A stretch of 64,000 nucleotides of DNA from Proteiniborus sp. MB09-C3 (GTDB lineage: Bacteria > Bacillota > Clostridia > Tissierellales > Proteiniboraceae). The notes below the pieces were generated by a model. The model did not search any database, was not told where the DNA came from, and saw nothing but the letters and a program-made list of their open reading frames with translations. Of the stretch, positions 2,224-46,497 are shown piece after piece. The stretch lies in the NCBI RefSeq assembly GCF_030263895.1, contig NZ_CP127161.1, positions 1,612,001 through 1,676,000 on the forward strand, given 5' to 3'. Numbering within the stretch: the stretch's first letter is position 1; each line of letters starts with the position of its first letter. Made by a program: the position numbers and the translations under genes.

Positions 2224-2880
2224 GTGGACTTAAGAGATCAAAACTTTGGAATTGAAATTGAGATGACAGGCATAACAAGAAAGAGAGCAGCTGAAGTAGT
2301 TGCAGAATATTTCAATGAGATAGCTGAACATGAAGGTGGTGGTTATGACACTTATAGTGTAAGGGATAATGAAAATAGAAAGTGGAAGTTTGTAAGTGAC
2401 GGCAGTATTAGCTGTCAGAAAAAAGTGGGAAATAGAAAGCAAATAGCCGACAGAGAATACAGTGTTGAACTTGTTAGTCCCATTTGTAAGTGTGAAGATA
2501 TCGAAAAGATACAGGAGATGGTGCGAAAACTTAGAGAGGCTGGAGCATTTAGTAATAAGTCCTGTGGAATCCATATTCACATTAATGCGGCACCTTTTGA
2601 AGCATACCAATTAAGAAATCTTGTTAATATTGTAGCTGCAAAAGAGAATATGATATACAAGGCATTACAGGTGGATTCAGATAGGGAAAGACGGTATTGC
2701 AAAAAGATAAATACGGATTTTTTGGAGAAGTTAAATAAGCAGAAACCAAAAACAAAGAGTGGAATCCAAAAGTTATGGTACAAAGGTAGTGATGGCAGTC
2801 ATCAGCATTATCATGATAGTAGATACCATTGCTTGAATCTTCATTCTGTCTTTCAAAAGGGAACGATTGAGTTTCGAGCT
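2224..2880 (+). pseudogene. Amidoligase family protein, N-terminal part, disrupted
   Basis: This is the first about 219 codons of an amidoligase (Amidoligase_2 type, COOH-NH2 ligase fold). GTG start at 2224 follows the ribosome site AGGTGGTG. Family features visible are GIEIEMTG near residue 8 and CGIHIHIN near residue 116. The frame runs FRA and then enters the left inverted repeat of the recombinase-trio element, reaching a stop at 2890-2892. The rest of the gene continues at 6613 with RAFNGSLHAGK. Amidoligases and gamma-glutamylcyclotransferases are known partners in mobile elements and are thought to make and remove amide linkages. As it stands the gene is broken. Confidence 0.85.
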
Positions 2881-2903
2881 TATGTGCAGTAAAATATTAT
2901 GTT
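2878..2903 (+). repeat. Left terminal inverted repeat of RIT element
   Basis: These 26 bases are the exact reverse complement of 6562-6587. The match extends two more bases outward (CG) across one mismatch. The inner 14 bases (2890-2903) can also pair with 2955-2968, so the end could fold as a cruciform. Confidence 0.9.
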
Positions 2904-3062
2904 AGCAATAGAAATGAAATGTTGAAAATACAGTAGTTAAGGCCATTATTACTGAACATAATATTTTATCTATGTGGTATTACTTTGATAAATACTGGAA
3001 ATAATAACATTAGCTAAGTAAATCTTACTCCACATAATAATGTTAACCCGGGAGGTAATACC

Positions 3063-4481
3063 ATGTTAGAAAACTATTTTACAGATTCTCGTACAATTTA
3101 TAGACTATCAAACTGTGGAATCTTTGGGCAAAAGATGGAGGAATATGCTAAATATCTCCACGAGCAAGAGTTCTCACAAAATACCACGAGGGAATATCTT
3201 CGTGCAGCAGCACATCTTAGCCGATTTGCTTTATGGCAAGGCATTAATGATTTATCACTATTAAATGAGACTTTTGCCTGTCAATTTGTAAATGAACATC
3301 TCCCTAATTGTTCTTGTGAACGTCTAAACAAAGGGAAATACCATTCCACAATACGTGGTGTATGGCAAGTACTAAATTTTTTAAGTGAATCTAAGATAAT
3401 TCCATCACCAGTAGATTTAATTGAAAACAGCCTCATACCAAAGAATCCCCAACCTTTTAAACCCCTAAAACCTTATCCACCAATACAATCAGAATCAGGC
3501 AAGCCTACCCCACCCAGAACGGATATTGCAAGCCAAGCTGTAATTATGGGTAACTTACCTGAAAGTATGGGTGGCATAGTACTTCAATACGATGAGTACT
3601 TAGATAATTTATTCGGACTGTCTAAGAAAACTCGTGATGTCCATAGGCTAAAAGCAATGCTATTTCTTAAATGGATATACGAAGAACATGGCTCTGATTT
3701 CCAACTTTCATCCTTGGGTACAGAGGATATTTTAAAGTTTCAAGAGATGTGCAATGAATACGGTTACTCCAACGATTATCGTAAGACCATAACATCTTGT
3801 CTTCGTGGATTCCTACGTTTTTTACGTTGGGAACGAATAATACAAGATGATTTGACACCTGCAGTTTACAAACTAAAGGAATGGAAGTTAGCAAGTGTAC
3901 CTAAGCACATCCCATACGAAACAGCTATGTTGTTACTTTCTGCACCAGATAGGGAAACTGTAAAAGGAAAGCGAGATTATCTAACGCTTTTATTAATGCT
4001 ACAACTTGGTCTTAGGGCAAATGAAATAATACAAATTGAACTGAAAGATATTTCCCTAACAAAAGGTGAATTATTCATCCATAAGACAAAGACTCACAGG
4101 GGGCGTTGTTTACCAATTACAAATGAGATTGCTGAGGCCATTGTTGATTATTTGCGTGTTAGACCAGAAAGGCAACAATCTGAGTTAGTTCTTAGGACTG
4201 TAAGACCATATAATCCCCTTAAAAATTCATCTTCACTTGGAAGTGTTGTTCGCCAATATATAGAACAATTAGACCTTAAAGTACCATCATATGGAACCCA
4301 TCTTCTAAGGCATTCACTAGCAACACACCTAGTAAATAATGGGGCATCTTTCAAGGAAACAGCTGATATTCTTGGGCATACAAGTATTGAAACTACTGGT
4401 ATTTATGCAAAAGTTCAGATTGAACGTTTAAAAGATATCGCCCTACCATTTCCTTGTTGGGAGGAGGTGTGCGTTATATGA
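3063..4481 (+). CDS. Tyrosine recombinase, first of RIT trio
   Basis: Site-specific DNA recombinase of 472 residues. ATG at 3063 follows GGGAGG at about 3050. The long N-terminal half contains SAM-like core-binding segments; the C-terminal catalytic half shows the active-site set: Arg in GLRANE, His-x-x-Arg in LLRHS, His in LGHTS and the nucleophile Tyr in TGIYAK. It is longer than the usual 300-400 residues because two core-binding-like segments appear in tandem. Its stop overlaps the start of the next recombinase (ATGA at 4478-4481), as expected for the coordinated trio. Catalytically complete by inspection. Confidence 0.9.
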   Translation: MLENYFTDSRTIYRLSNCGIFGQKMEEYAKYLHEQEFSQNTTREYLRAAAHLSRFALWQGINDLSLLNETFACQFVNEHLPNCSCERLNKGKYHSTIRGVWQVLNFLSESKIIPSPVDLIENSLIPKNPQPFKPLKPYPPIQSESGKPTPPRTDIASQAVIMGNLPESMGGIVLQYDEYLDNLFGLSKKTRDVHRLKAMLFLKWIYEEHGSDFQLSSLGTEDILKFQEMCNEYGYSNDYRKTITSCLRGFLRFLRWERIIQDDLTPAVYKLKEWKLASVPKHIPYETAMLLLSAPDRETVKGKRDYLTLLLMLQLGLRANEIIQIELKDISLTKGELFIHKTKTHRGRCLPITNEIAEAIVDYLRVRPERQQSELVLRTVRPYNPLKNSSSLGSVVRQYIEQLDLKVPSYGTHLLRHSLATHLVNNGASFKETADILGHTSIETTGIYAKVQIERLKDIALPFPCWEEVCVI

Positions 4482-5422
4482 AAAGGGCACCTGATTTTAA
4501 CAGCTTTAATGCTGATAACCTATCTGAATATACTAAGTTTATGGTGGATAATGGCCGCTCCTTTCGTGTAGAAACCACTATTTTAAAAGAATTTGATCGT
4601 TTTCTACAATCCCTAGCAAGTACAGTTATTAATTCTGATACTGTTGAATCTTTCGTTTATAGCAAGATAGACCTTAGCAATAGCCAATATGAAAAACGAC
4701 ATCGTATAATACGTGGATTTTTAGATTACTATGCTATAAAAGGGACAGGGGAAAGTATTCCAACTCCTCCCAAACCACGTAGTCAAGGGCGTCATATACC
4801 GTATTTATATACAACCCCTGATATTGAAAAGGTCTTATCCTTAGCTGCTGATTTAAACCCTAAAGATTCAATAAGGTCACATAGTTTTCAAGCAATTATA
4901 GGACTTCTTTATTGTACAGGTATGCGTATCAGTGAAGTTCTAAGATTAGATATAAGTGATGTGGATTTGGAAAATGGTGTGTTGTTTATCCAAAACACTA
5001 AGTTTAAAAAATCAAGATATGTCCAAATACATCCAACAGCTGTTGAGGTTTTAAAGCGATACTTAAAGTTAAGAAATCATTATTCATCCAATCCCAAGAG
5101 TCAGGCATTCTTTTTAAGCACACGCAATGATAGACTGGCATATGGTACTTTTAATGCTACATTCCTTCAACTGGTACGTGAGGCTGGAGTCCGTACAGAA
5201 AACCGTAATTCCAGAACCCATGATCTTAGACACACCTTTGCAGTTAATCGCATGCTTAAATGGTATGAAGAAGATTCTGATTTTCACGAGCAACTCCCCG
5301 TGCTTTCAACATATATGGGTCATGCTCATTTTGAGGATACTACTTACTATTTAAATGCTAGTGCTGAGCTGATGGCAAAAGGCTCAAAGTCTTTTCAATT
5401 TGGAGGTAATGGCAATGAGTGA
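4478..5422 (+). CDS. Tyrosine recombinase, second of RIT trio
   Basis: Phage-integrase-type recombinase of about 314 residues. The ATG at 4478 is preceded by GAGGAGG and overlaps the previous stop as ATGA; the frame is open a little further upstream but that has no better start. Catalytic residues visible: Arg in CTGMRISE, HDLRH, GHAH and Tyr in DTTYYLNAS. Between the HxxR box and the last His there is an unusually long insert (LKWYEEDSDFHEQLP), a feature of this recombinase subtype. It overlaps the third recombinase gene by about 8 bases. Confidence 0.9.
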   Translation: MKRAPDFNSFNADNLSEYTKFMVDNGRSFRVETTILKEFDRFLQSLASTVINSDTVESFVYSKIDLSNSQYEKRHRIIRGFLDYYAIKGTGESIPTPPKPRSQGRHIPYLYTTPDIEKVLSLAADLNPKDSIRSHSFQAIIGLLYCTGMRISEVLRLDISDVDLENGVLFIQNTKFKKSRYVQIHPTAVEVLKRYLKLRNHYSSNPKSQAFFLSTRNDRLAYGTFNATFLQLVREAGVRTENRNSRTHDLRHTFAVNRMLKWYEEDSDFHEQLPVLSTYMGHAHFEDTTYYLNASAELMAKGSKSFQFGGNGNE

Positions 5423-6422
5423 AACTAAACCTATAAGTCTAGGAGAAATGCTGGAAAGCTTCTTTAACAAAAGATTAATTCAACAACAAAATGTATCACA
5501 AAATACAATCAATAGTTATCGGGATACATGGCGACTATTACTTCGTTATTTAGTATCTGAAAAAGAGATATCTATGACTCGATTATCCATTGATATGGTT
5601 ACGGCAGAGGTAATTCTTGATTTTCTAAATCATCTTGAAACACAACGGAAATGCAGTATAAATACACGAAATCAGCGTAGGGCTGCCATCCGTGCTTTTG
5701 CTAGCCATGTAATTTTATATGAACCAAAATATATGGCACAGTTTGAACGGGTTTTATCCATACCAGCAAAGAATTATGAGAAAAAAATGCTTGGTTATCT
5801 TACAGATGAAGAGATGGACTGTATCCTATCCACCTTTAATCGCAGTACCCCAGATGGATTCAGAAACTACGCTCTTTTCATGTTAATGTACAATGTTGGA
5901 GCCCGTGTTTCAGAGATAATATCAATTAAATGTAAGGATGTAGGTACAAATCAAATACTTATTCATGGAAAATCAAGTAAAGACCGTATCGTTCCAATCT
6001 GGCCAGAAACAGCAAAATTATTAAGTCAACTAATGGTTAATGAAAGCCTTGATCCAGATCAAAACCTTTTCTTGAATATGAAAAAGGAACCTTTAACTAG
6101 GAGTGGAATTTCTTATATATTGGCTACAGCTTCAATCAACGCAACAAAAAAATGCCCAACTTTACAGGGCAGAAAAATATCACCTCATACAATTAGGCAT
6201 ACAACTGCAATGCATTTACTCCAATCAGGTACTGATCTAAATCTTATCCGAATGTGGCTAGGACATGTTCATTTAGATACTACACATGGATATATTGAGG
6301 CAGATATTAAAATGAAACGGAAGACATTAGAAAACAGTGGAATTTCTAAGCCTGGTAAAGGTTATACCTGGAACCCGACAGATGAAGTTAAAGATTTTCT
6401 TAATACCCTTGGAATTAAGTGA
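5415..6422 (+). CDS. Tyrosine recombinase, third of RIT trio
   Basis: Recombinase of about 335 residues closest in look to XerC/XerD. ATG at 5415 has GGAGG at 5402-5406 at good spacing; an in-frame ATG at 5409 is too close. Active-site residues: Arg in GARVSE, SPHTIRH, GHVH and Tyr in HGYIEAD. The conserved trio order and the overlaps suggest the three proteins act together, each recognising part of the ends; this last point is inference from the family. Confidence 0.9.
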   Translation: MSETKPISLGEMLESFFNKRLIQQQNVSQNTINSYRDTWRLLLRYLVSEKEISMTRLSIDMVTAEVILDFLNHLETQRKCSINTRNQRRAAIRAFASHVILYEPKYMAQFERVLSIPAKNYEKKMLGYLTDEEMDCILSTFNRSTPDGFRNYALFMLMYNVGARVSEIISIKCKDVGTNQILIHGKSSKDRIVPIWPETAKLLSQLMVNESLDPDQNLFLNMKKEPLTRSGISYILATASINATKKCPTLQGRKISPHTIRHTTAMHLLQSGTDLNLIRMWLGHVHLDTTHGYIEADIKMKRKTLENSGISKPGKGYTWNPTDEVKDFLNTLGIK

Positions 6423-6561
6423 AGTATTATGTGCAGTAAATGTTATTTCTCTTGAGTACAATTAGCCATAGTTATTACAACAGAATAATTATAACTGGGA
6501 ATATTATGTTTAGTGATAAGTGGAGAATCCCTTTAGTTGTAGCAAATTCTCTAATTAACTG

Positions 6562-6587
6562 AACATAATATTTTACTGCACATAAGC
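6562..6587 (-). repeat. Right terminal inverted repeat of RIT element
   Basis: Exact 26-bp reverse complement of 2878-2903. It is followed by ACG and a second palindrome. Confidence 0.9.
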
Positions 6588-6617
6588 ACGATTATGCTTA
6601 GCTCAACATAATCGTGC
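6586..6617. repeat. Hairpin at right junction of RIT element
   Basis: GCACGATTATG (6586-6596) and CATAATCGTGC (6607-6617) form a perfect 11-bp stem with a 10-base loop. It overlaps the end of the right inverted repeat and runs into the first codons of the resumed amidoligase frame. It may be part of the element end or of the recombination site. Not a terminator: no T run follows. Confidence 0.75.
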
Positions 6618-7008
6618 CTTTAATGGTTCCCTTCATGCTGGGAAGATGAAAGCATATCTGCAATTTTGTATGGCTATTACAGCTCAAGCCTACAACCAAA
6701 GGTCAGCAAGTCCAATAAAGACTGTATCAGAAAATGAAAAATATACATTCAGAGTATGGCTATTAAGACTTGGTTTAATAGGAGATGAATTTAAAACAGC
6801 AAGGAAACATCTCCTTGACCATTTAGAAGGAAATATTGCATGGAAGTCACCTGAACAAGCAGAAGCACAGAAAGAAAGGTTAAGAAAAAAGAGAGAAGTT
6901 GAGCTTTCAGATTCACAAGAAGAAACAATAGAAACACAAAATAATGATATGGCAGTAGATGAGCAGGAGGAAGAATCTCCTGCTTTTACTATGTCTATGA
7001 ATCAGTAG
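6613..7008 (+). pseudogene. Amidoligase family protein, C-terminal part
   Basis: Starting at 6613 the frame reads RAFNGSLHAGKMKAYLQFC, the direct continuation of FRA that breaks off at 2880. The segment to 7008 is about 131 codons, with a helical stretch and an acidic Glu/Gln-rich tail. An ATG at 6646 could start a 120-residue product, but no ribosome site precedes it and it would lack the ligase core, so this is the severed end of the gene rather than a separate one. GGAGG before the next gene lies just after the stop. Confidence 0.8.
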
Positions 7009-12267: not shown

Positions 12268-14937
12268 ATGCCAAGGCTTATTTTAAAGTGCCCATATCTA
12301 AAAGGTGGAGGCAAAAGAACATCAGCTCACCTTGAAAACTTGGTAAATTATATAGCTACTCGTGATGGAGTAGAAAAGATAAAAGTCGAAGATAAAAATC
12401 TTTCATCTACAATTAAGCAAGAGGAATTAATTGCTCAGATCATAAAAGAGTTCCCAAGTACTAAAAATCTGTTTGAGTATGAGGATTATATTAGTAATTC
12501 TACAATAGAAAATGCTTCTGAATTTATTGGGATAGCAATAGAACAAAATGTTGATAAGATTGGTAAAAGAAAAAATTATGTGGATTATATTGCAAATAGA
12601 CCAAGGGTAGAAAAAATGGGAAAGCATGGGCTGTTCACAGGCGGTGATGATACCCTGGTGCTTAGCAGAATAGCAGACAACGTTGCAAACCATACAGGAA
12701 ACATATGGACTCCGATTATATCACTTAGACGAGAAGATGCTGCAAGACTTGGTTTTGATAATGCTGAAAGCTGGCACAATATGCTTTCTTACTACACTAT
12801 AGATATAGCTGAATGTTTGAAAATAAAGCCTGAAAACTTTCAATGGTATGCAGCTTTTCATAATGAAGGGCATCATCCCCATGTTCATATGATTTGTTAC
12901 TCTACAGATCCTAAAGAGGGATACCTAACTAAAAAAGGTATAGAGAAAATGAAATCAGGATTTGTAAAAAATATCTTTGGTCAGGAACTAGAGGGAATTT
13001 ATATAGAGCAAAGTAAAAGAAGAGATGAGTTGAAACAAGAATCAAGGGAAGTATTAATCAAACTAATTACTGAGATGAAAAATGACACAATGCAGAATAG
13101 CAATATTGAAGAAAAGTTAATAAATCTTTCCGACCGTCTGAAATTTACTAATGGAAAAAAACAATATGGTTATTTACAGCCACAGCTTAAAGCAATGGTA
13201 GATGAGATTGTAGATGAGCTCGCAAAGGATGAAAAGATTAGTAAGGCATATGCTCTTTGGTATGAAATGCATAATGAAGTGCTTTATAATTACATGGGTA
13301 ATTTGCGTGAACCTCTTCCTTTATCACAGCAAAAAGAATTCAAGTCAATTAAAAATATGATTATTAGAGAGGCGGATAATTTCGATAAAGGAACTACTAC
13401 CTTTGAAGAAGTAACTGATGATAATACTGATATTACTGATGAAAGAATAGATAAAGCAATAGATGACATATTTATAAATGATACTGGATTTATTGAAATA
13501 GAAGGTTATACTCTAGATTTAGTTAGTGAAATAGAAGTTAATGATGATACCACTGAAGATGTTTACGTAAAATGGAGTGATGAATACAAAGAGGCTTGTG
13601 ATTTTTTATTTGGTACAGATGATATAGTTCAAGATTTAGAAAGAGCTTTTGAGATGTTTGTATTAGAAGCAAAAAATGGGAATGCTCTTGCCATGTTTGA
13701 TATTGGAAGAATGTTTGCAGACGGACTTGGTCGAGATATTGATATATCAAAAGCTTATGAGTGGTATCAAAAGGCTCTTGCAGCTTTTTATAAGGTTGAA
13801 GATAAAAAGACATGGAAATATACAGAATATCGTATAGGTAAAATGCAGTTACAAGGTCTTGGTACAGAAGAAAGCTATGAAGAGGCTTTCTATTGGTTCA
13901 CTTTATCAGCAGAACAAAAATATAAATTTGCCGAGTATTCTTTGGGTGGACTTTATTATAGGGGCCAAGGCGTAGAACAAAGCTATATAAAAGCTTTTAA
14001 TTTGTATTTAAGATCTGCAAAACAGGGTTTCCCATATGCTGATTTTGAAGTTGCAAAGATGTATAATGATGGAGTTGGAACCTATAAGAATGAAAAAGAA
14101 TCAAATAAATATTTTCATTCTGCATTCATCGGTTTTGAAAAGTTAGAAAAGCAAAGCAATGATGATAAAATACAATATAGACTTGGCTGGATGCTTCAAA
14201 ATGGGATTGGTACTGAAAAGGATATAGAGAGAGCAAAAAAGTACTATGAAAAGTCTGCAAAGCTAGGAAATTTATTTGCTTGTTACTCACTTGCAAAATT
14301 AATCCTTGCAGAAGAAAATCCAACTATAACAGAAATTAAGAAAGCAGTTGAATATTTATATCAGGCATCGACAAGTGGTAATCAATTTGCACAGTATTCT
14401 CTTGGCAAGCTTTATCTTAACGGAAAATATGTGGAGAAGGATATTTATAAAGTTGTAGGACTGTTTGAACTATCATCAGAACAGGGGAATGAGTATGCGG
14501 CATATCAGCTAGGCAAGTTATACCTTAAGGGGGAGGATATACATAAAGACATTTCGACAGCAATAAAATGGTTACTTATATCAGCAGAAAAAGGAAATCA
14601 ATATGCACAGTATTTATTGGGGAAATTATATTTAACGGGTGAAGGTGTACCAAAAAATAAAGAAGAGGCAATAGAATGGTTTACATTATCGGCAGATCAA
14701 GGAAATGAATACGCAAAGATTTTCCTTGAAAATATGGATAAATTTAAAGAACCATCTGCATGTCTTATGGTAACAAGAATGTTCCATCATATGAGTAAAA
14801 TATTTGAAGATAATATTCCTCTTAAATCATCAGGGGTAGGATTAAAGATAGATAGTAAGCTTATGAGGAAACTAAGAGAAAAGAAAGCAGCACAAGGGAA
14901 TAAGAGAGATGAACATGAACAGGGAATTATAATTTAA
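12268..14937 (+). CDS. MobP-type relaxase with Sel1-repeat C-terminus
   Basis: Relaxases nick one strand at oriT and pilot it into the recipient. The N-terminal domain has candidate catalytic tyrosines in the LVNYIATRDGV and YVDYIANRPRV segments (residues about 28 and 104) and the metal-binding histidines in NEGHHPHVHM (about residues 200-208). From about residue 460 to 830 there is a long series of Sel1-like (tetratricopeptide-like) repeats with the pattern A-x-Y-x-LGKLY and A-x-x-W, a protein-interaction solenoid. At 889 residues it is much longer than a relaxase domain alone. The repeat tail may dock the relaxase to the coupling protein or other factors; inference. Confidence 0.9.
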   Translation: MPRLILKCPYLKGGGKRTSAHLENLVNYIATRDGVEKIKVEDKNLSSTIKQEELIAQIIKEFPSTKNLFEYEDYISNSTIENASEFIGIAIEQNVDKIGKRKNYVDYIANRPRVEKMGKHGLFTGGDDTLVLSRIADNVANHTGNIWTPIISLRREDAARLGFDNAESWHNMLSYYTIDIAECLKIKPENFQWYAAFHNEGHHPHVHMICYSTDPKEGYLTKKGIEKMKSGFVKNIFGQELEGIYIEQSKRRDELKQESREVLIKLITEMKNDTMQNSNIEEKLINLSDRLKFTNGKKQYGYLQPQLKAMVDEIVDELAKDEKISKAYALWYEMHNEVLYNYMGNLREPLPLSQQKEFKSIKNMIIREADNFDKGTTTFEEVTDDNTDITDERIDKAIDDIFINDTGFIEIEGYTLDLVSEIEVNDDTTEDVYVKWSDEYKEACDFLFGTDDIVQDLERAFEMFVLEAKNGNALAMFDIGRMFADGLGRDIDISKAYEWYQKALAAFYKVEDKKTWKYTEYRIGKMQLQGLGTEESYEEAFYWFTLSAEQKYKFAEYSLGGLYYRGQGVEQSYIKAFNLYLRSAKQGFPYADFEVAKMYNDGVGTYKNEKESNKYFHSAFIGFEKLEKQSNDDKIQYRLGWMLQNGIGTEKDIERAKKYYEKSAKLGNLFACYSLAKLILAEENPTITEIKKAVEYLYQASTSGNQFAQYSLGKLYLNGKYVEKDIYKVVGLFELSSEQGNEYAAYQLGKLYLKGEDIHKDISTAIKWLLISAEKGNQYAQYLLGKLYLTGEGVPKNKEEAIEWFTLSADQGNEYAKIFLENMDKFKEPSACLMVTRMFHHMSKIFEDNIPLKSSGVGLKIDSKLMRKLREKKAAQGNKRDEHEQGIII

Positions 14938-17960: not shown

Positions 17961-18018
17961 AAAACCACAGGATTGATTGATCTGTGCATAAAATATTTTG
18001 GGAATGGAGGTTAATTTA

Positions 18019-19866
18019 ATGCAATCACAGGTACTTTTATTGATAGGAGTTGGTTCCATAATGTTCTTAGTTATTGGTGGGTTGTCTTTACTTGCTCATT
18101 ATTATACCTTAAATGGAATCAAATCTAAAACAGTAGGTGATGGCCAACATGGAGTTGCTCGTTTCGCTACACAAAAGGAAATTATTAAAACATATGAGCA
18201 TATTCCTTTCAATGTATCACAATGGAGAAAGGGTAAGAATCTTCCACGTGATGAGAGTGGTAATTTGATACAGGGATTAGTGGTTGGATGTAAAGGAAAT
18301 AAAGGAGATATTGTAGGACTTGTAGATACAGGAGATGTTCACTGTCTTATGATTGGTGCAGCAGGAGTTGGTAAAACAGCCTTTTTTCTATATCCAAACC
18401 TAGAATATGCATGTGCAAGTGGGATGAGTTTTATAACCACTGATACAAAGGGAGATTTAGCTAGAAACTATGGAACGATAGCTAAAGAGAATTATGGATA
18501 TAAAGTTGCAGTTATTGATTTAAGAAATCCCACACGCAGTGATGGAAATAATCTTTTGCACTTAGTAAATAAATATATGGATGCATATCGAGAGAATAAC
18601 GATAATCTATCGGCAAGAGCTAAGGCAGAAAAATATGCAAAGATAATCTCTAAGACAATCATAAATTCAGGAGGTGACAGCTCAGCTTATGGGCAAAATG
18701 CATTCTTCTATGATGCGGCCGAAGGACTTCTGACAGCAGTTATTTTATTGGTAGCAGAATACTTGCCTCCTAGTGAAGAAGATGGAATTGTAACAGATAC
18801 AAGGCATATCATTAGTGTATTTAAATTGGTACAGGATTTAATGGCTCCAAGTAAGGTGAAAGGGAAAAGCCAGTTCCAATTATTAATGGATAAACTTCCA
18901 CCTGATCATAAAGCTAGATGGTTTGCTGGTGCTGCACTTAATTCAGCAGAGCAAGCAATGGCTTCTGTTCTTTCTACTGTACTATCAAGGCTCAATGCAT
19001 TTCTTGATTCTGAAATGGAGCAGATATTGTGTTTTGATACAACAATTGATGCGGAAACCTTCTGCTATGAAAAATCTGCAATATTTCTTATACTCCCGGA
19101 GGAAGATAATACAAAGTATTTCATGGTCAGTTTATTTTTGCAACAGTTTTATCGTGAGATGTTGACAGTAGCTGATGAAAACGGAGGCAAACTACCTAAT
19201 CGTGTGATGATATATGCAGATGAAATAGGAACAATACCCAAAATAGAATCCTTTGAAATGATGCTTAGTGCAGGGAGATCAAGAAGAATTTCTATTGTAC
19301 CAATCATTCAATCCTTTGCACAGCTTGATAAGAATTATGGGAAAGAAGGTAGTGAGATTATAACTGATAACTGTCAACTCACTATATTTGGAGGGTTTGC
19401 ACCAAATTCAGAAACAGCTCAGGTGTTATCTAAAGCACTTGGTAGTAGAACAGTTATGAGTGGAAGCATCAGCAGAGGGAAAAATGATCCCTCTCAAAGT
19501 TTACAGATGATTGAGCGACCTCTACTTACGGCAGATGAGTTAAAATCCTTGCCTAAAGGAAACTTTGTAATTATGAAAACAGGTGTACATCCAATGCAAA
19601 CAAAACTTCGATTATTTTTGGATTGGGGCATCACTTTTGACAAGCCATATGAGATGGAGGAAAAGTCCCATCGTAAGGTACGCTATGCCGACAAGCAGAC
19701 CTTAGAAGAAAATGTTATTAGTCAGTATATGACTGATGTAATAGACGAAGAAGGAACTACCGAATCCACTGCAAACAAACAAGGAGGCATACTTCATACT
19801 CCTACACATGAGCAAACTGGTGAAGGTAAAGTAGATTCGAAACGCAAATCAATACTCAGGACATAG
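18019..19866 (+). CDS. virD4: VirD4-type coupling protein
   Basis: Type IV coupling ATPase, linking the relaxosome to the secretion channel at the membrane. ATG at 18019 has GGAGG at 18006-18010; an earlier in-frame TTG is less likely. Residues about 5-27 form an N-terminal membrane segment, the Walker A motif GAAGVGKT is near residue 115, and the Walker B-like IYADEIGTIPK near residue 397. The TraG/VirD4 signature around LSAGRSRRISIVPIIQS follows. Length (615 residues) is normal for the family. Together with virB4 and the relaxase it shows an autonomous transfer system. Confidence 0.92.
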   Translation: MQSQVLLLIGVGSIMFLVIGGLSLLAHYYTLNGIKSKTVGDGQHGVARFATQKEIIKTYEHIPFNVSQWRKGKNLPRDESGNLIQGLVVGCKGNKGDIVGLVDTGDVHCLMIGAAGVGKTAFFLYPNLEYACASGMSFITTDTKGDLARNYGTIAKENYGYKVAVIDLRNPTRSDGNNLLHLVNKYMDAYRENNDNLSARAKAEKYAKIISKTIINSGGDSSAYGQNAFFYDAAEGLLTAVILLVAEYLPPSEEDGIVTDTRHIISVFKLVQDLMAPSKVKGKSQFQLLMDKLPPDHKARWFAGAALNSAEQAMASVLSTVLSRLNAFLDSEMEQILCFDTTIDAETFCYEKSAIFLILPEEDNTKYFMVSLFLQQFYREMLTVADENGGKLPNRVMIYADEIGTIPKIESFEMMLSAGRSRRISIVPIIQSFAQLDKNYGKEGSEIITDNCQLTIFGGFAPNSETAQVLSKALGSRTVMSGSISRGKNDPSQSLQMIERPLLTADELKSLPKGNFVIMKTGVHPMQTKLRLFLDWGITFDKPYEMEEKSHRKVRYADKQTLEENVISQYMTDVIDEEGTTESTANKQGGILHTPTHEQTGEGKVDSKRKSILRT

Positions 19867-20709: not shown

Positions 20710-21663
20710 GTGAAGTCAAATATTATTGTAGATATTATAGAAGAAGATGTTGTATCATATGGGCAATCACTGCTTAATATCCTCCTCAAAGATAGAACTA
20801 CAAATCAGAACATAATCTGGGCATCAAATGATTATTCTAAATTTGGAGATTTGTATAAAGCAGAATGTGAAATTAAGCCTCTCTTAATTACAAATTCTAA
20901 TGACAAAGTTATACAACCTAGAATAACTAAAACTTATAAAAAGCAAAATATCCGGACAAGAGAAAAGGCAGAAGTTTTTACCCCTTCATGGGTATGTAAT
21001 GAACAGAATAACCTTATAGATGAACAATGGTTTGGAAGAAAAGATGTATTTAATATACAAAAAAGCAAATCTTGGAAACCAACAAATAATAAAATACCTT
21101 TTACAGATGAAAAAGGGCGAACTTGGAAAGATTATGTTGATGCAAGAAGAATCGAAATTACATGTGGTGAGGCACCGTATTTGGTAAGTCGATATGATAC
21201 CGTTACTGGAGAAACAATTGAATTAGTGTCACGTATAGGGTTACTGGATCGCAAGATGCGGGTGATAAATGAAAATCTAGAGGATGAAGATGAATGGCAA
21301 AAATGGACTGAAAGAGCCTTTCAAAGTGTATATGGATATGAATATCAAGGAGACAATCTGCTTTTAGCACGTGAGAACCTTTTATATACTTACATTGAAA
21401 ATATGAAATATAAATTTGAGCGTTCCCCAAGTTTAATAGAATTGAAGAGAATAGCCACAATTATATCTTGGAATATATGGCAAATGGATGGAATTACATT
21501 TTCAGTACCATTATGTGATATGCGGTGCTGGTTCGAACAATTAACTCTGTTTGATAACTATGGTGATATTAACAATGAAATTGAACATAAATATTGCAAG
21601 ATTAAGGATTGGCGTTCAAGGATTATTATTGAGTATAGGTCATTAGTAGGAGGGGGAAAATAA
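20710..21663 (+). CDS. Methyltransferase-like subunit (restriction subunit M type)
   Basis: About 317 residues from GTG 20710, which has AAGGAGG at 20697-20703; the frame is open upstream but overlaps the controller gene. It has the N-terminal landmarks of gamma-type N6-adenine methylases: EVFTPSWV (region X-like, about residue 88), ITCGEAPYLVSRYD (SAM-binding motif I-like, about residue 158) and GYEYQGDNLLLAREN (motif II-like). It has no NPPY/F catalytic motif. That motif occurs at the C-terminus of the next protein, whose start overlaps this stop, so the two may form one split methylase. Confidence 0.75.
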   Translation: MKSNIIVDIIEEDVVSYGQSLLNILLKDRTTNQNIIWASNDYSKFGDLYKAECEIKPLLITNSNDKVIQPRITKTYKKQNIRTREKAEVFTPSWVCNEQNNLIDEQWFGRKDVFNIQKSKSWKPTNNKIPFTDEKGRTWKDYVDARRIEITCGEAPYLVSRYDTVTGETIELVSRIGLLDRKMRVINENLEDEDEWQKWTERAFQSVYGYEYQGDNLLLARENLLYTYIENMKYKFERSPSLIELKRIATIISWNIWQMDGITFSVPLCDMRCWFEQLTLFDNYGDINNEIEHKYCKIKDWRSRIIIEYRSLVGGGK

Positions 21664-24600
21664 TGGAGAAGTTATTTACATCATCATTCGAATATAAGCT
21701 GATATATATCTTTGAAATAAGGGATGAAACTCATAAGGGACTGTTAAAAATAGGTGATACTACTATCCAAACAGAAGAGTCTATTGATAATCTTCCTCCA
21801 AATTGCAAGGCATTAAATCAAGCTGCAAAAGCTCGCATTAAAGAATATACCAATACTGCAGGTGTGTCCTTCGAACTTTTACATACAGAACTTGCCGTTC
21901 GCACTGTAAAAGATAAGGGCAATATGCCTGTTTTAAAGGCATTTAGGGATTATCATGTACATAGAGTGCTTGAGAACTCTGGAATCAAGAAAAAACAGTT
22001 AAGGGATTCTACAAGTCGTGAGTGGTTTAAAATAGATATTAAAACGGCTCTAAAAGCAATAGAAGCAGTAAAAAAAGGACAATATAATCTTTCTAATGCT
22101 ATATCGGATCAATTCGTACCTATCGTATTTCGACCAGAGCAAGACGTAGCTATTGCTAAAACACTTAAGCAGTTTAAAAGTAGCAATAGGATGTTGTGGA
22201 ATGCTAAGATGCGTTTTGGAAAGACACTCTGTGCCCTTGAAGTTGTGCGCCAATCAAAATTCAAAAAAACTATTATTATTACACATAGACCTGTTGTAGA
22301 CAGCGGTTGGTACGAGGATTTCGGTAAAATATTTCAAGGTGTGGATGGTTATATTTATGGTTCAAAGAACAGTGGTTATACGGTTGATCAATTGCTAAAA
22401 ACAGATAAGAACTTTGTGTACTTTGCATCTATGCAAGACTTGAGGGGTTCTGATTTAGTTGGTGGTAAATTTGATAAGAACAGTGCTGTGTTTGATACTA
22501 CTTGGGACTTTGTCATAGTTGATGAAGCCCATGAAGGTACAACAACAGCACTAGGTAATGATGTTATAAAGAATATTGTCAAAGAAGAGAATGGATGTGA
22601 TACAAAGTTCCTTGCACTTTCTGGCACACCTTTCAATATTCTTGGAGATTATGATGAAAATATTTATACTTGGGACTACGTTATGGAGCAGAGTCGTAAG
22701 TATGAATGGGATAGTTTGCACTTTGGTGATTCAAATCCTTATGACGAATTACCTGAACTTAAGATTTTTACATATGACCTTGGTAAACTTATATCAGATA
22801 GTATTTATGTTGAGTTAGAAGATAAAGCATTTAATTTCCGTGAATTTTTTCGTGTATGGACTGGAGATATGAAATCTGACCGCAAACCTCTCCCAACGGG
22901 AATAGAAGCAGGAAGCTTTTTCCATGAAGATGATGTCTGGAGTTTTCTTAATCTTATTACTAAAGAAGATAAGAAAAGTCAGTATCCATATGCCACAGAA
23001 GAATATCGTAACTTGTTCAAGCATTCTTTATGGATGGTTCCGGGCGTAAAAGAAGCAAAAGCCTTGAGTAAAATGATGAAAAAACATTCTATTTTTGGTA
23101 GTGGAGCATTTGACATTGTAAATGTTGCAGGGGATGGAGATGAGGAAGAAAAATCTGAAGAGGCACTTAAAAAGGTTCGTAATGCCATTAATAGTGCAGG
23201 GGAAGATGGGTATACTATTACATTATCATGTGGCAAGTTAACCACAGGGGTTACTGTGCCAGAGTGGACGGCTGTATTTATGCTTTCAGGTTCTTTTTCC
23301 ACTTCTGCTGCAAATTATCTACAGACTATATTTCGTGTACAATCACCTTGTAATAAGAATGGAAAAATAAAACGCAACTGTTATGTATTTGATTTTGCAC
23401 CAGATAGAACGCTTAAAATGGTTGCTGAGTCCGTTGCAATATCAACAAAGGCGGGAAAAACAGATGAATCTGACAGGCGCATTATAGGAGAATTCTTAAA
23501 TTATTGCCCAGTTATTGCAGTTGACGGAACAGTTATGAAAAAATATGATACAAATAGGCTATTACAACAACTGAAACGTGCCTATGCTGAACGAGCAGTT
23601 CAAAACGGATTTGATGATAATAATCTATATAATGATGAGTTACTCAAACTTAATGAAATTGATTTAGAAAAATTTAAAAAACTAAAAGGAATTGTAGGCG
23701 CATCAAAAACAGCTCCTAAGTCTAATGATATAGATATCAATAATCAAGGATTTACTGATGAAGAATATGAAGAAGTCAAACGTATTGAGAAAAAACCGAA
23801 AAGAGAGCGTACTCCAGAAGAAGAAGAAAAGTTAAAGGAAATAGCCGAAAAAAATAAACAGGCTGCAAATGCACGGTCTATTCTTCGCAGTATTTCTATC
23901 CGTATGCCTTTACTTATTTATGGAGCAGATATAACTATAGATGAAGATATTACGATGGAAAAAATTGTTGATATAGTTGATGATTCTTCTTGGGATGAGT
24001 TTATGCCAAATGGTGTAAGCAAGGAAATATTTAAGGGGTTTATTAAATATTATGATCCTGAAATATTTGTAGCTGCAGGAAGAAAAATCCGTAATACCGT
24101 AAAAGGCGCAGATGAACTTCCGCCGACAGAGCGTGTACAAAAAATTGCACAAATCTTCTCTTGTTTTAAGAATCCAGATAAAGAAACAGTCTTAACCCCG
24201 TGGAGGGTAGTAAATATGCATATGAGCGACTGTTTGGGAGGCTATGACTTCTATGACGCAGAACACAATACGATAATTGAAGAGCCGAGATATATTGACC
24301 ATGGCAAAGTAACAGAAGATACTCTTGGCAACAAAGATGCTAAGATACTTGAAATTAATTCTAAGACAGGCCTTTATCCGCTCTATGTGGCATATAGCAT
24401 TTTCCGTAGAAAGTGTGTATCTTATTCAGAATATGAACTGACCGTTGAACAGGAAGGAAAGCTTTGGAATGAAACAGTTCAGCAGAATGTGTTTGTTATT
24501 TGTAAAACGCCTATGGCAAAATCTATTACAAAGCGTACCTTAGTCGGATTTAAAGATGTTCCTGTGAACTCACATTATTTTGACGATCTCATTAATATGA

Positions 24601-25661
24601 TGAAGAATAAGCCTAAACAATTTATTAATCGTGTTAAAAAACCAAGCTATTGGAAGATAGAGGGAGTGAAAGAAATGAAATTTGATGCAGTAGTAGGTAA
24701 TCCACCTTATCAAATTAGTGATGGTGGTTATGGTGATAGTGCTAAACCAATATATAATCTTTTTATAGAACAGGCAAAGGCACTTAATCCTAAGCACCTA
24801 TCTATGATTATTCCTGCAAGATGGTATTCGGGCGGAAAGGGATTAGACTCTTTTAGAAAAGAGATGTTAAATGATGACCAACTAAATGTTATTCATGACT
24901 TTCCAGAAACATCTGATTGTTTTTCAAATGTTAATATCCGTGGTGGTGTATGCTATTTTTTATGGTCTAAAGATAAGCATGATGATTGTACTATTTTTAA
25001 TCATCAAAACAATACAGTGGTAAGTGAATTAAAGCGACCTTTATTAGAAAAAGATGCAGAAACATTTATTAGGTACAATAAAGCAATAACTATATTAAGG
25101 AAGGTTCAAACTTTTGGGGAACCAACTATGGATAAGTTAGTAAGTTCAAGAAAACCTTTTGGTTTAGCCACAAACTTCACTGGTTTTTCTCTTTCAAAAA
25201 CTGAAGAGAAAAATATATACCTACATCGATTTGGGGAGAACGGATATATTTCTTTAAGTCAAGTTCCCAAAAACACAGAGTGGATTTACGATACAAAGAT
25301 ATTTGTACCATATGCAAGTCCTGGGGCGGATGATTACCCACATCTTGTATTATCTAAACCAATTGTTGCAGGGGTCAATACAGCTTGTACGGAAACGTAT
25401 TTAGTTATAGGTCCATTCGAGAATGAATTAACTGCTAAAAATGTTGCTGAATATATGAGAACAAAATTTTTCCGTTTTATGCTTATACTATTAAAGAGCG
25501 CACAACATATTACCCAAAAAGTATATGGTTTAGTTCCACAGCAAGATTTTACAAAAAAATGGAATGATGATATTTTATATGCTAAGTATGATATCACTGA
25601 CGATGAAATCACATTTATAAACACTCTTGTGAAAGATGTTGATTGGAATTTGAACGAGTAA
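21663..25661 (+). CDS. GIY-YIG-like, DEAD helicase and Eco57I-type methylase fusion
   Basis: A 1332-residue protein of several domains. The N-terminus (KLIYIFEIRD, GLLKIGDTT) resembles a T5orf172/GIY-YIG nuclease domain. A helicase core follows with AKMRFGKT (Walker A, about residue 181) and DEAH (about 287). A Lys/Glu-rich coiled region spans about 700-745. The C-terminus has NPPY (about residue 1013), motif IV of N6-adenine methylases, followed by a likely target-recognition region. Nuclease, ATPase and methylase elements in one chain suggest a restriction enzyme; motif I seems to be on the preceding subunit. Start overlaps the previous gene's stop. Confidence 0.82.
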   Translation: MEKLFTSSFEYKLIYIFEIRDETHKGLLKIGDTTIQTEESIDNLPPNCKALNQAAKARIKEYTNTAGVSFELLHTELAVRTVKDKGNMPVLKAFRDYHVHRVLENSGIKKKQLRDSTSREWFKIDIKTALKAIEAVKKGQYNLSNAISDQFVPIVFRPEQDVAIAKTLKQFKSSNRMLWNAKMRFGKTLCALEVVRQSKFKKTIIITHRPVVDSGWYEDFGKIFQGVDGYIYGSKNSGYTVDQLLKTDKNFVYFASMQDLRGSDLVGGKFDKNSAVFDTTWDFVIVDEAHEGTTTALGNDVIKNIVKEENGCDTKFLALSGTPFNILGDYDENIYTWDYVMEQSRKYEWDSLHFGDSNPYDELPELKIFTYDLGKLISDSIYVELEDKAFNFREFFRVWTGDMKSDRKPLPTGIEAGSFFHEDDVWSFLNLITKEDKKSQYPYATEEYRNLFKHSLWMVPGVKEAKALSKMMKKHSIFGSGAFDIVNVAGDGDEEEKSEEALKKVRNAINSAGEDGYTITLSCGKLTTGVTVPEWTAVFMLSGSFSTSAANYLQTIFRVQSPCNKNGKIKRNCYVFDFAPDRTLKMVAESVAISTKAGKTDESDRRIIGEFLNYCPVIAVDGTVMKKYDTNRLLQQLKRAYAERAVQNGFDDNNLYNDELLKLNEIDLEKFKKLKGIVGASKTAPKSNDIDINNQGFTDEEYEEVKRIEKKPKRERTPEEEEKLKEIAEKNKQAANARSILRSISIRMPLLIYGADITIDEDITMEKIVDIVDDSSWDEFMPNGVSKEIFKGFIKYYDPEIFVAAGRKIRNTVKGADELPPTERVQKIAQIFSCFKNPDKETVLTPWRVVNMHMSDCLGGYDFYDAEHNTIIEEPRYIDHGKVTEDTLGNKDAKILEINSKTGLYPLYVAYSIFRRKCVSYSEYELTVEQEGKLWNETVQQNVFVICKTPMAKSITKRTLVGFKDVPVNSHYFDDLINMMKNKPKQFINRVKKPSYWKIEGVKEMKFDAVVGNPPYQISDGGYGDSAKPIYNLFIEQAKALNPKHLSMIIPARWYSGGKGLDSFRKEMLNDDQLNVIHDFPETSDCFSNVNIRGGVCYFLWSKDKHDDCTIFNHQNNTVVSELKRPLLEKDAETFIRYNKAITILRKVQTFGEPTMDKLVSSRKPFGLATNFTGFSLSKTEEKNIYLHRFGENGYISLSQVPKNTEWIYDTKIFVPYASPGADDYPHLVLSKPIVAGVNTACTETYLVIGPFENELTAKNVAEYMRTKFFRFMLILLKSAQHITQKVYGLVPQQDFTKKWNDDILYAKYDITDDEITFINTLVKDVDWNLNE

Positions 25662-31328: not shown

Positions 31329-32918
31329 ATGGCAAAGAAAGTAAGAAAAATAGAACCTGTAAAGCAAAAGGTTATTTTAGAATTACAACCTAAAAAACGA
31401 GTTTGTGCCTACTGCAGAGTAAGTACTGATTCAAGAGAACAACAGAATTCCTTTTCTGCACAAGTAGAATATTACAAGACTTTTATCGGAAAAAGAGATG
31501 ACTGGGAATACACAGGAATCTACGCTGATGAAGCCAAAAGTGGTACGCAAGTAAAAAAACGTGATGAATTTCTACGGATGATAAAAGACTGTGAAGACGG
31601 CAAAATTGATATGATCATTACAAAATCCGTCACAAGGTTTGCTAGAAATACAGTAGACAGTATTGAGGCTATCAGAAAGCTAAAAGCACTTGGTATCGGG
31701 GTATATTTTGAGAAAGAACATATTAATACCCTATCAGAAAAAAGTGAGCAGATGATTACCATACTAAGCTCCCTTGCACAAGGAGAGGCAGAAAGCATCT
31801 CCACTAATAACAAATGGGCAGTTAAAAAGAGATTTCAAGATGGAACATTTAAGCTTAGTGATCCTGCTTATGGATATACCAAGGATGAAGATGGAAATCT
31901 CATAATAAAAGAAGATGAAGCAAAGATTGTCCGTAGAATTTTTCATGAATATCTAAATGGCAAAGGCTCGTATATAATAGCAAGGTATTTAAATGACGAT
32001 AATGTCCCAACCATACGCTCAGCAGAAGAATGGCAGGACAGTGTAGTAAAAGAAATCTTACAAAATTCCATCTACGAGGGAGACTTATTATTACAAAAGA
32101 CATATACAACTGAGGTACTTCCCTTTGAAAGAAAATCAAATAAAGGGGAACTGCCTCAGTATTTTATTGAAAACAATCACGAACCCATTATTACAAGAAA
32201 AGAAGGGCAGATGGTCCGAGAAATTTATGAATATCGAAGAAATCAAATGGGAGTAGATGATAGTGGAAAATACCAAAACAGATATGAATTTAGCAGCAAA
32301 ATCATCTGCAAGGAATGTGGTAGCACCTTTAGGAGACAAAAGATTTATATCGGTAAACCGTATGAAAAAATTCAGTGGTGCTGTGTCCAGCATATAAGGA
32401 ATATAAGTAAATGCAGCATGAAAGCTGTAAGGGAGGATATTATAAAAGAAACCTTCCTAACCATGTGGAATAAACTTATAAGTAATTATACAGATATCCT
32501 TTATCCACTACTTGAATCCTTGAAGAATTTAAGAACGGATCATGAGCAGGAAGAAGAAATTAAAAAACTAAATAATAGAATTATGGAATTAACAGAGCAG
32601 AGTCATATCCTTAGTAGAGTCGTATCGAAAGGGTATATTGACTCTGCTATTTTTATAGAAAGACAAAATGCTCTGACTGTAGAACTTGAAGCTATTAAGA
32701 AAATGAGGAATCAATGCCTTGATAATAACGGTTATGAAAAAGAAATCATAGGAACAGCAAGGCTACTAGAAATCATAAGGTATAACCCAGAGATTATAGA
32801 AGAGTATGACGAAAACCTATTTCTCCATACAGTGGAAAATATTATTATCGGTGAAAATTATGAGATTACCTTCAAGCTAATTAATAATCTGGAGCTGACA
32901 GAGTATTATGGAAAGTGA
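31329..32918 (+). CDS. Large serine recombinase 1
   Basis: A 529-residue resolvase/invertase-type recombinase with AAAGGAGG before ATG 31329. The catalytic Ser is residue 32 in YCRVSTD; the N-terminal domain also shows KSVTRFARNTVD. The central recombinase domain (EAKIVRRIFHEYLNGKGS) and a zinc ribbon (CKECGSTFRR ... C) are followed by a coiled-coil segment near 400-450. Such enzymes integrate and excise elements in one step. It overlaps the following gene and starts a three-gene recombinase set. Confidence 0.92.
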   Translation: MAKKVRKIEPVKQKVILELQPKKRVCAYCRVSTDSREQQNSFSAQVEYYKTFIGKRDDWEYTGIYADEAKSGTQVKKRDEFLRMIKDCEDGKIDMIITKSVTRFARNTVDSIEAIRKLKALGIGVYFEKEHINTLSEKSEQMITILSSLAQGEAESISTNNKWAVKKRFQDGTFKLSDPAYGYTKDEDGNLIIKEDEAKIVRRIFHEYLNGKGSYIIARYLNDDNVPTIRSAEEWQDSVVKEILQNSIYEGDLLLQKTYTTEVLPFERKSNKGELPQYFIENNHEPIITRKEGQMVREIYEYRRNQMGVDDSGKYQNRYEFSSKIICKECGSTFRRQKIYIGKPYEKIQWCCVQHIRNISKCSMKAVREDIIKETFLTMWNKLISNYTDILYPLLESLKNLRTDHEQEEEIKKLNNRIMELTEQSHILSRVVSKGYIDSAIFIERQNALTVELEAIKKMRNQCLDNNGYEKEIIGTARLLEIIRYNPEIIEEYDENLFLHTVENIIIGENYEITFKLINNLELTEYYGK

Positions 32919-33849
32919 GGTGAGGTGGATGATGCAAAGGCATATGCCACTTGGCTATAAGATAGTAGATGGAAAAGTAATAATTGATGAAGAAAAGGTA
33001 GATGTGATTAAAAAGATATTTGAGGAGTACCATAAAGGATCATCCTTACATGCCATAGCAAAAGAACTTACAAACGCAGGATTTTTAAATGCTAATAACA
33101 AACCTAATTGGAATCATGGCTCCGTAGGAAAGATACTTCAAAATATTAAGTACGTAGGGGATGACTTTTATCCTCAGATGATAGATAAGGAAACCTTTGA
33201 ATCTGTACAGAAAAGAAGAAAGAAAAAAGAGCAAGAACTAGGAAGAACCCTGCAACCTAATAGCATGAAAAATCAAAGTTTATATAGCAATAAATTAGTG
33301 TGTGGAGAATGTGGTGATGTTTACCGCAAATACATTGAACATGCTGGCAGACCATCTGAGAAGAGCAACTGGAAGTGTAAGAGGTACATCTACCAAAATA
33401 GAGTACACTGTAGAAATTTATTTTTAACTGAAAAAGATATAGAAGATACATTTTTGTCAGCAATCAATAAAATCTTATCAAGAAAGTGGATGCTAGATAA
33501 AGGTAGGAAAAAAGAACCTCCAAGGATCACCTTAGAAATTAGAAGGCTGGAAGAACGAATCAAAGAGCTAGAGTACGAAGAGCATTTCTCATCAAAGGAA
33601 TTATCAGAGCTAATCTTTAAAAGGGCAAAGGCATATTATAGCATCGCTAAAATAGATGATTATGATTATAACACTGAAAAAATAAAAAAATTACTGGCTG
33701 AGAAAGAACAGCTAACAGAGTTTGATGAAGATATATCTATAAACATAATAAATCAGATAGTTATTTATAAAGATGGAAGAATCCTAGTAGAATTTATCAA
33801 TGGCATAACTATGGAGGAGGATCATGAGAAAATAAGAGAGGATGAATGA
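32908..33849 (+). CDS. Recombinase-like protein 2 lacking the catalytic domain
   Basis: Up to 313 residues; the most likely start is one of the ATGs at 32929/32932 behind AGGTGG. It begins directly with the recombinase domain (DVIKKIFEEYHKGSSLHAIAKEL, then NWNHGSVGKILQNIKYVGD) and has the zinc ribbon CGECGDVYRK and a C-terminal coiled coil, but no N-terminal serine catalytic domain. The frame is intact and the gene is tightly coupled to its neighbours, so this looks like an evolved non-catalytic partner, perhaps a directionality or DNA-binding subunit, rather than decay. The role is inference. Confidence 0.85.
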   Translation: MESEVRWMMQRHMPLGYKIVDGKVIIDEEKVDVIKKIFEEYHKGSSLHAIAKELTNAGFLNANNKPNWNHGSVGKILQNIKYVGDDFYPQMIDKETFESVQKRRKKKEQELGRTLQPNSMKNQSLYSNKLVCGECGDVYRKYIEHAGRPSEKSNWKCKRYIYQNRVHCRNLFLTEKDIEDTFLSAINKILSRKWMLDKGRKKEPPRITLEIRRLEERIKELEYEEHFSSKELSELIFKRAKAYYSIAKIDDYDYNTEKIKKLLAEKEQLTEFDEDISINIINQIVIYKDGRILVEFINGITMEEDHEKIREDE

Positions 33850-33850
33850 A

Positions 33851-45224: not shown

Positions 45225-46493
45225 GTGAGAGATTATTTAACAAACTATCAAATGATATTACGTGGAGATACTCCTAAAGGTTTTATAAAAGATGATTTCT
45301 GGATTATACCATCTGATTGGGAAAAAACTAAGATGAAAGATATTTTGGAAGAAAGAAAAGAGTATACAACGGATCAAGATACTTACCCATTATTTAGTTT
45401 AACAATTGAAAAAGGGGTTGTAGAAAAAACTGACAGATACGAAAGACAGTATTTGGTAACTAAAGATGGTGATAATTATAAAGTAGTATATGAAAATGAT
45501 TTTGTTTATAATCCAATGAATATTAGATTTGGTGCTGTAGCATTGCATAAGTTAAGATATCCAGTATCTGTTTCAGCATATTATAATACGTTCTATATAA
45601 AAAACGGTTATAATCCCAGATTTATCGAATATTTTTTACAGTCATTTAGAATGTTACACTTTTATAACAATTATGCAGAAGGATCATTAATTGAAAAAAG
45701 GAGACTTCATTATAGTGTGCTTTTGGAGTATAGTTTTAGCTTCCCTCCAATATTTGAGCAAAATAGAATTATTGAAATTCTTTCAACGTGGGACAAAGCT
45801 ATCGAATTGAAAGAAAAGCTAATCGATGAAAAGAAAAAACAAAAGGCGGGGCTGATGCAAAAATTACTTACTGGAAATGTGAGATTTACTGGATTTAATG
45901 ATGCATGGGAAGAAGTGAAGTTTGGCAAGGTATTCAAGTTTTTAAATAAAGAACGTGTTAGTGAGCCGCAGAATTATAAGTTGCTAACTGTAAAACTCCA
46001 TTTAAAAGGTATTGAAGCAACTGAAAAATATCCAAATGACACAAAGAATGGTAGGCCATATTATTTGAGAGAACCAAATGAAATATTAATTGGACGCCAG
46101 AATTATCATAACGGTGGAATAGGAATTGTACCAAGTAATATGAAAAATTACATTGCATCAAATGCAATAAGTAGTTTAACAACAATTAAAGGTGATTTAA
46201 TGTTTTTATTTTACTATATTTCAAATGTTGACTTTTATAAAAGGGTCGGACATATGATAGGTGGTACAGGACAAAAGGAAATATCTGAAACAACTATGAA
46301 AAATCTGGTTTTACGTATTCCTAAATCATTAGAGGAGCAGAAAAAAATTGGAGAAGTTCTTAAAACAGCCGATAATGAAATAGATTTATTAGAAAAAGAA
46401 CTAGAAAGTCTAAAGCAACAAAAGAAAGGCTTAATGCAACTTCTATTAACAGGCATAATAAGAGTGAATACCCAAGAAAATGAAAAGAGGTGA
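45225..46493 (+). CDS. hsdS: Type I specificity subunit HsdS
   Basis: A 422-residue S protein with two target-recognition domains and two conserved helical spacers (KKQKAGLMQKLLTG near 210 and LKQQKKGLMQLLLTG near 400). It determines the bipartite DNA sequence recognised by the complex. GTG start at 45225 after AGGGGGAAA. The stop overlaps the region used as ribosome site by hsdR. Confidence 0.93.
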   Translation: MRDYLTNYQMILRGDTPKGFIKDDFWIIPSDWEKTKMKDILEERKEYTTDQDTYPLFSLTIEKGVVEKTDRYERQYLVTKDGDNYKVVYENDFVYNPMNIRFGAVALHKLRYPVSVSAYYNTFYIKNGYNPRFIEYFLQSFRMLHFYNNYAEGSLIEKRRLHYSVLLEYSFSFPPIFEQNRIIEILSTWDKAIELKEKLIDEKKKQKAGLMQKLLTGNVRFTGFNDAWEEVKFGKVFKFLNKERVSEPQNYKLLTVKLHLKGIEATEKYPNDTKNGRPYYLREPNEILIGRQNYHNGGIGIVPSNMKNYIASNAISSLTTIKGDLMFLFYYISNVDFYKRVGHMIGGTGQKEISETTMKNLVLRIPKSLEEQKKIGEVLKTADNEIDLLEKELESLKQQKKGLMQLLLTGIIRVNTQENEKR

Positions 46494-46497
46494 TACT

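Follow-up and report, generated by a model that had tools for sequence, protein, structure and literature searches.

Organization of the RIT Element and Its Target Gene

The window analyzed here, a 64,000-nucleotide stretch of the Proteiniborus sp. MB09-C3 genome (NZ_CP127161.1, positions 1,612,001 to 1,676,000), harbors an amidoligase gene interrupted by a recombinase-in-trio (RIT) element of the order ritA-ritB-ritC, located at 2880–6611 (3732 bp including a terminal palindrome). The first gene, ritA (3063–4481, forward strand), encodes a tyrosine recombinase of 472 aa; ritB (4478–5422, forward strand) overlaps it by 4 bp, and ritC (5415–6422, forward strand), which encodes a recombinase of 335 aa, overlaps ritB by 8 bp. 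The Pfam profile PF00589 matched all three products with an E value of about 1e-30 each, and their assignment as RitA, RitB, and RitC was made with profiles built from annotated RITs. The catalytic residues of RitA (R318/K343/H413/R416/H439/Y448) and RitC (R164/K186/H258/R261/H284/Y293) were found to be invariant in alignments of RIT relatives, and those of RitB were present when read by eye. These results bear out the initial annotation, which had described three overlapping tyrosine recombinase genes with complete catalytic residues. The AlphaFold2 model of RitA (mean pLDDT 76) showed two core-binding-type helical bundles, at residues 19–109 and 167–256, ahead of the catalytic domain, and that of RitC (mean pLDDT 86.5) showed an additional C-terminal helix, at residues 323–331, beyond the tyrosine helix. 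This is in agreement with the family features reported earlier, i.e., two sequential core-binding domains in RitA and an extra C-terminal helix in RitC (PMC8138268).

The open reading frame (ORF) at 2224–2892 was identified as Amidoligase_2 (PF12224, E = 7e-73). Its frame is broken after ...GTIEFR and picks up again as RAFNGSLHAGK at 6613. Three intact homologues (L008, L009, and L010, with 81, 76, and 66% identity; survey loci are denoted by L and genomes by G numbers) read through EFRAFNG uninterrupted and contain neither a RIT nor a palindrome, confirming the earlier proposal that the element splits an amidoligase gene. The N-terminal part of the gene, up to ...GTIEF, is thus placed at 2224–2873 and the C-terminal part, which starts from the Ala codon and includes ...FNGSLHAGK..., at 6618–7008, both on the forward strand. 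Removal of 2880–6611 together with one 6-mer yielded HSVFQKGTIEFRAFNGSLHAGKMKAYL across the joined flanks, and the two closest intact homologues carry GAATTTCGTGCCTTTAA at the target site. By this comparison, the element is assigned to the codons EFR|AFNG of the Amidoligase_2 gene.

The terminal inverted repeats are perfect over 26 bp (2878–2903 and 6562–6587), as had been annotated, extend to 30 bp at one mismatch, and are not due to chance. The left junction reads TTGAGTT-TCGAGC-TTATGTGCAG..., in which TCGAGC (2874–2879, forward strand) is a 6-bp overlap that, from comparison with intact sites, probably consists of the target's own bases. The left terminal repeat (2880–2903, forward strand) opens with the motif copy TTATGTGCAG (2880–2889), and a second copy, TTATGTTAGC (2897–2906), lies 17 bp further inward; the right terminal repeat (6562–6585, reverse strand) is the inverted copy of the left. 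The right junction reads ...CTGCACATAA-GCACGA-TTATGCTTAGCTCAACATAA-TCGTGC-CTTTAATGG, where GCACGA (6586–6591; reverse complement TCGTGC) is an inner 6-bp overlap, designated O1, TTATGCTTAGCTCAACATAA (6592–6611) is a 20-bp palindrome, and TCGTGC (6612–6617, forward strand) is the right junction overlap. The inverted repeats on which the initial annotation had based the ends of the element are real; its right end had to be moved, since a 6-bp spacer, the 20-bp palindrome, and a second 6-bp spacer lie beyond the repeat. Alignment with uninterrupted amidoligases, which had been proposed as a check, supported the insertion itself and not a simple target duplication: a perfect duplication is absent at this RIT, the 6-mers at its two ends being TCGAGC and TCGTGC.

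Both the RIT and the palindrome are single-copy in the 3.88-Mb genome, and a plasmid search at the DNA level gave no match. The same genome contains, at G000:C1:2938400-2948000 (L092), a second pair of RitB/RitC-like recombinase genes without ritA, which adjoins IS21 istA/istB, IS66-like, and IS110-like genes.

A Reversed Relative in the Same Codon

The only RitA relative found in the genome collection (89% protein identity) is located on a contig of a Desulfitobacteriaceae metagenome-assembled genome (L006). Its RIT is 87% identical to that of the window and occupies the same codon of the same gene in the opposite orientation. That element carries its palindrome at the ritA end, and this is still the C-terminal side of the amidoligase, as in the window. 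A contig from the viral collection (L037) provided two further junctions, both with amidoligase C-halves and both with the palindrome; one of these flanks is a divergent amidoligase (reverse-strand translation read by eye), and the contig may be rearranged or misassembled. All three additional junctions in this subfamily thus involve amidoligase genes, and the unrelated flanking genes that would have spoken against the proposed target were not found among the relatives.

Distribution of the Palindrome Among RITs

The survey covered Bacillota and Proteobacteria and comprised 13 plasmid loci, i.e., 12 RIT copies from Phaeobacter, Dinoroseobacter, and Pseudosulfitobacter and a nested Aromatoleum locus, together with 40 regions around RitC relatives, picked by RitC similarity from genomes of the window's phylum. 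Both ends were in hand for 47 RITs, many of the copies inside a family not being independent. A looser motif criterion used earlier matched 20% of background windows and was replaced by a strict one, which required a 20-bp palindrome exactly 6 bp outside the terminal repeat, with a motif common to both at at least 7 of 10 bases. By this criterion the palindrome was present in 36 of the 47 RITs, and in 42 on adding six with a weaker motif match (Dinoroseobacter and Pseudosulfitobacter); the background was 38 of 4700 shuffled end zones, and among 196 windows lying within rit genes there were 6 matches. TTATGnnAAG-CTTnnCATAA is the most frequent form of the palindrome. Its motif also opens the terminal repeat, usually as two copies in direct order, and the palindrome is nearly always found at a single end of the RIT.

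A few loci depart from this arrangement. In L037 (whole contig) and L090 (3603–7115, reverse strand), a RIT lies between two inverted target C-halves with a palindrome on each, and L101 (1–3760) has its RIT between two inverted copies of one flank and lacks a palindrome; reading by eye assigned this flank to the N-half of an IstB Walker A gene. These three loci look like the reciprocal products expected from recombination between two oppositely oriented RITs.

Two Dinoroseobacter RITs (L045 and L046) are ∼6.3 kb long and contain, past ritC and ahead of the right repeat, a gene annotated as a DEAD/DEAH helicase, showing that RITs can carry cargo. In addition, one RIT family (L073, L111, and L112) adjoins a phage portal gene, and the flank past its palindrome itself resembles the TTATGnnnAG motif.

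Palindrome Position, Orientation, and the 6-bp Overlaps

The RIT copies were grouped by target motif after rebuilding of the empty sites. The automatic empty-site ORF was wrong in strand or frame at L037, L050, L084, L087, and L099 and lacked a clear target at L073, L086, and L090; these loci were read by eye or omitted. Four copies were assigned by eye: L050 and L084, on account of the strand error in their automatic ORF, and L100 and L104, on account of a poorly defined far end. At each of nine sites (36 copies), the side of the palindrome relative to the target was constant, and RIT orientation was divided 18:18. In Phaeobacter, G655, G514, and G628, which hold near-identical copies in both orientations, the palindrome is asymmetric and, when read in the orientation of the RIT, was letter-identical at either end. 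One such pair is Phaeobacter L047 and L048, which are 99.97% identical over 3460 bp with a 28-bp block shifted to the opposite end. The fixed orientation of the palindrome relative to the RIT and the shift of this block amount to circular permutation, which points to a circle opened at either of two overlaps, O1 or O2. It is very probable, judging from these comparisons, that the copies arose by circular permutation from a single circle with two inverted core sites in its joint.

The inner spacer is 6 bp by the search criterion itself, and the outer 6-bp spacer is backed by the rebuilt reading frames. The two outer 6-mers within one copy differed by a mean of 1.1 bases vs. 4.2 when shuffled among copies, and all three 6-mers (two outer and one inner) were identical in 17 of 38 copies. 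Where the 6-mers differ, the one on the palindrome side is constant in some families and the other is target-dependent (Pseudosulfitobacter, 4 of 4; Phaeobacter L047, L051, and L052), and in L071 the Walker-A-coding bases are kept on the other side. The assignment of the 6-mers is ambiguous in some copies (L045/L046 and L049). The rebuilt joint of the window RIT forms an 80-bp palindrome in which 38 of 40 positions pair.

Proposed Mode of Insertion and Alternatives

Empty sites and multiple copies suggest that RITs are mobile. We infer a circle as the mobile form, with the joint right terminal repeat–O1–palindrome–O2–left terminal repeat; any sequence of strand exchanges and any pairing of recombinases with binding sites would likewise be inferential. 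O1 and O2 would be 6-bp overlaps, often one 6-mer in inverted orientation, and the palindrome is a 20-bp inverted dimer of the ∼10-bp motif (TTATGnnnAG) that also opens each terminal repeat. Inverted motifs would then flank each overlap as in an ordinary tyrosine-recombinase core site, giving the circle two opposed cores. Insertion of the circle could result when either core exchanges with 6 bp of like sequence inside a conserved motif of the target; the polarity of the overlap would decide on which side of the target the palindrome comes to lie, and the choice between O1 and O2 would decide the orientation of the element. In the window, a palindromic double-core circle able to enter in either orientation would have inserted at the EFR|A codons of an amidoligase gene in an ICE-like region through site-specific recombination, a proposal in which we have high confidence given the directly observed anatomy, target site, 6-bp spacers, both orientations, and a palindrome that is fixed to the RIT at opposite ends.

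Several observations weigh against this proposal. The palindrome sequences differ within the family formed by the window, L006, and L037, so that the window itself offers only a weak test of orientation. No palindrome was present at some RIT loci (L053, L068, L088, and L101), and that of L099 is weak. Three differing 6-mers occur in several copies (L069–L071 and Dinoroseobacter), which indicates that overlap identity is not strictly required. Finally, the joint pattern was sought in 398 assembled genomes and gave no match, and the three matches among viral contigs included no circle.

Among the alternatives, a folded single-strand joint, as in CTXphi or integron sites, or a copy-out route, as proposed for strand-biased circularizing elements (SEs) and Tn554, with replication completing the integration, is possible, though clearly less probable than the double-core circle. 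The self-complementarity of the window joint would suit it, as would the multicopy RITs within one genome, which suggest that the donor is retained; the 6-bp pattern is like that of SEs, in which one end retains bases of the target and the other has carried bases. Against it, O1 and O2 are not necessarily complementary in several copies, and the sequence contains nothing that demands such a route, which would be a variant of the circle model with identical end products. In-place inversion, in which the left core recombines with the inner core O1 and flips the three genes while the palindrome remains stationary, is improbable. It would also account for both orientations together with a constant palindrome side relative to the target, and its two cores are properly positioned as inverted sites; however, it predicts a palindrome fixed relative to the target, whereas the four families with asymmetric palindromes show it fixed relative to the RIT. 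Still harder to sustain is a palindrome that pre-existed in the target as a hairpin or scar beside which RITs insert. Such an origin would account for the always fixed side of the target, but intact amidoligases have no palindrome, its sequence tracks RIT family and orientation, and there is no solo palindrome in the window's genome or in G655, where four palindromes accompany four RITs and hence no scars were left. The intact homologues and the orientation of the palindrome likewise rule it out as a part of the target. The simple model of the initial annotation, with an element stopping at its 26-bp inverted repeats and a short target duplication, is the least credible, for although the repeats are real and CGAGC/CGTGC resembles an imperfect 5-bp duplication, it leaves unaccounted for the 26 bp beyond the right repeat (6586–6611, O1 and palindrome), which are missing from intact genes and recurrent in most RITs, and it is contradicted by L006 and the wider survey.

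Target Motifs and Recombinase Phylogeny

Targets were identified by Pfam and motif. The RITs were inserted in conserved-motif codons, and most of the genes hit belong to other mobile elements. Amidoligase genes are interrupted at EFR|AFNG (window and L006) and at CG|IHIH (L083/L084), ArdC-type zincin genes at HExxH (L047–L052), and a gene for an AAA_34/strawberry-notch protein at two sites. The KGxxE motif of IstA-type rve/Mu-C transposases is the target in L066, L076, L080, L082, L089, and L094–L097, some of them identified by motif only; IstB genes are interrupted at Walker A (L071, L075, L098, and L100; L104 by motif) or Walker B (L093, L102, and L103), and group II intron reverse transcriptase genes at PQGG (L069, L070, and L091). 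The LRHSYATH motif of a tyrosine recombinase (L079) and an ArdA-family gene (L085) were each the target in a single case. The RitC tree places the insertions at IstB Walker A, those at IstB Walker B, those in intron reverse transcriptase genes, and most of those in IstA genes each in a group of their own. Since the tree groups by main target class, target choice looks heritable, and it is probably set by the recombinases.

The surroundings of the amidoligase gene (window 1–36000) look like an integrative conjugative element (ICE) in their gene content, with a VirB4-type ATPase, a MobL relaxase with Sel1 repeats (12268–14937), a coupling protein (17998–19866), and two large serine recombinases (31329–32918 and 33842–35509). 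Two restriction genes are also present in the window, one (21663–25661) combining an Eco57I-type methylase with a ResIII helicase and the other (46480–49653) coding for a type I restriction R subunit.

Relation to Known Systems and Significance

Tn916 carries a 6-bp heterologous overlap (coupling sequence) in its circle, and the folded attP of CTXphi has two inverted core sites in one joint; the RIT would work in a similar way. The RIT differs from them in its proteins, in having no excisionase gene in the element, and in its targets, which are conserved-motif codons. The feature in the window is a genuine RIT, and its value lies in what the comparison says about RIT insertion and targets. It resembles published RITs in having three tyrosine recombinase genes, arranged A-B-C and overlapping by 4–8 bp, and a length of about 3.5 kb (Van Houdt et al., 2012, PMC3414803; Ricker et al., 2013), as well as in its inverted repeats at the ends, the palindrome near one end, and insertion into genes of other mobile elements. 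A palindrome beside the inverted repeat was reported in 2012, the two together fitting no usual site pattern (PMC3414803); the switching of the palindrome between ends with orientation, the 6-bp spacers, and the target-fixed side go beyond that report, and parts of the end structure may already be contained in Ricker et al. (2013). As described in the available portions of PMC10214605 and PMC5385486, SEs, GInts, and Tn554 act alike in using several cooperating tyrosine recombinases, site-specific insertion, and 6-bp footprint exchange, and the RIT overlaps, likewise 6 bp, resemble the footprint described for SEs and Tn554 (PMC10214605). These elements differ in having a fourth or third non-recombinase gene (Srap/GinD/TnpC), and those portions describe no switching palindrome. 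Membership of the Tn554 family (tnpA-tnpB-tnpC, with the non-recombinase TnpC) was rejected, all three genes of the element being PF00589 members with no fourth gene; the three genes likewise do not correspond to an SE or GInt, which have four conserved genes including Tfp/GinC and Srap/GinD.

The movement of RITs, their targets, and the need for three recombinases are open questions in the field, and in a table published in 2023 both the target specificity and the movement of RITs are entered as not tested. To these questions the comparison contributes precisely placed ends, a rule for the targets, and a joint open to detection by PCR. More broadly, RITs might form a class of tyrosine-recombinase transposons with a palindromic double-core joint, in which lineages are specialised to one conserved motif, act as disabling parasites of mobile elements, and use the three recombinases to serve the terminal-repeat, palindrome, and target arms; we consider this broader picture about evenly balanced between holding and failing. 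Since the genes hit at conserved-motif codons are those of IS21, group II introns, plasmids, and ICEs, RITs would be parasites of other mobile elements, and they would provide natural recombinases whose targets are distinct, short, and derived from protein motifs.

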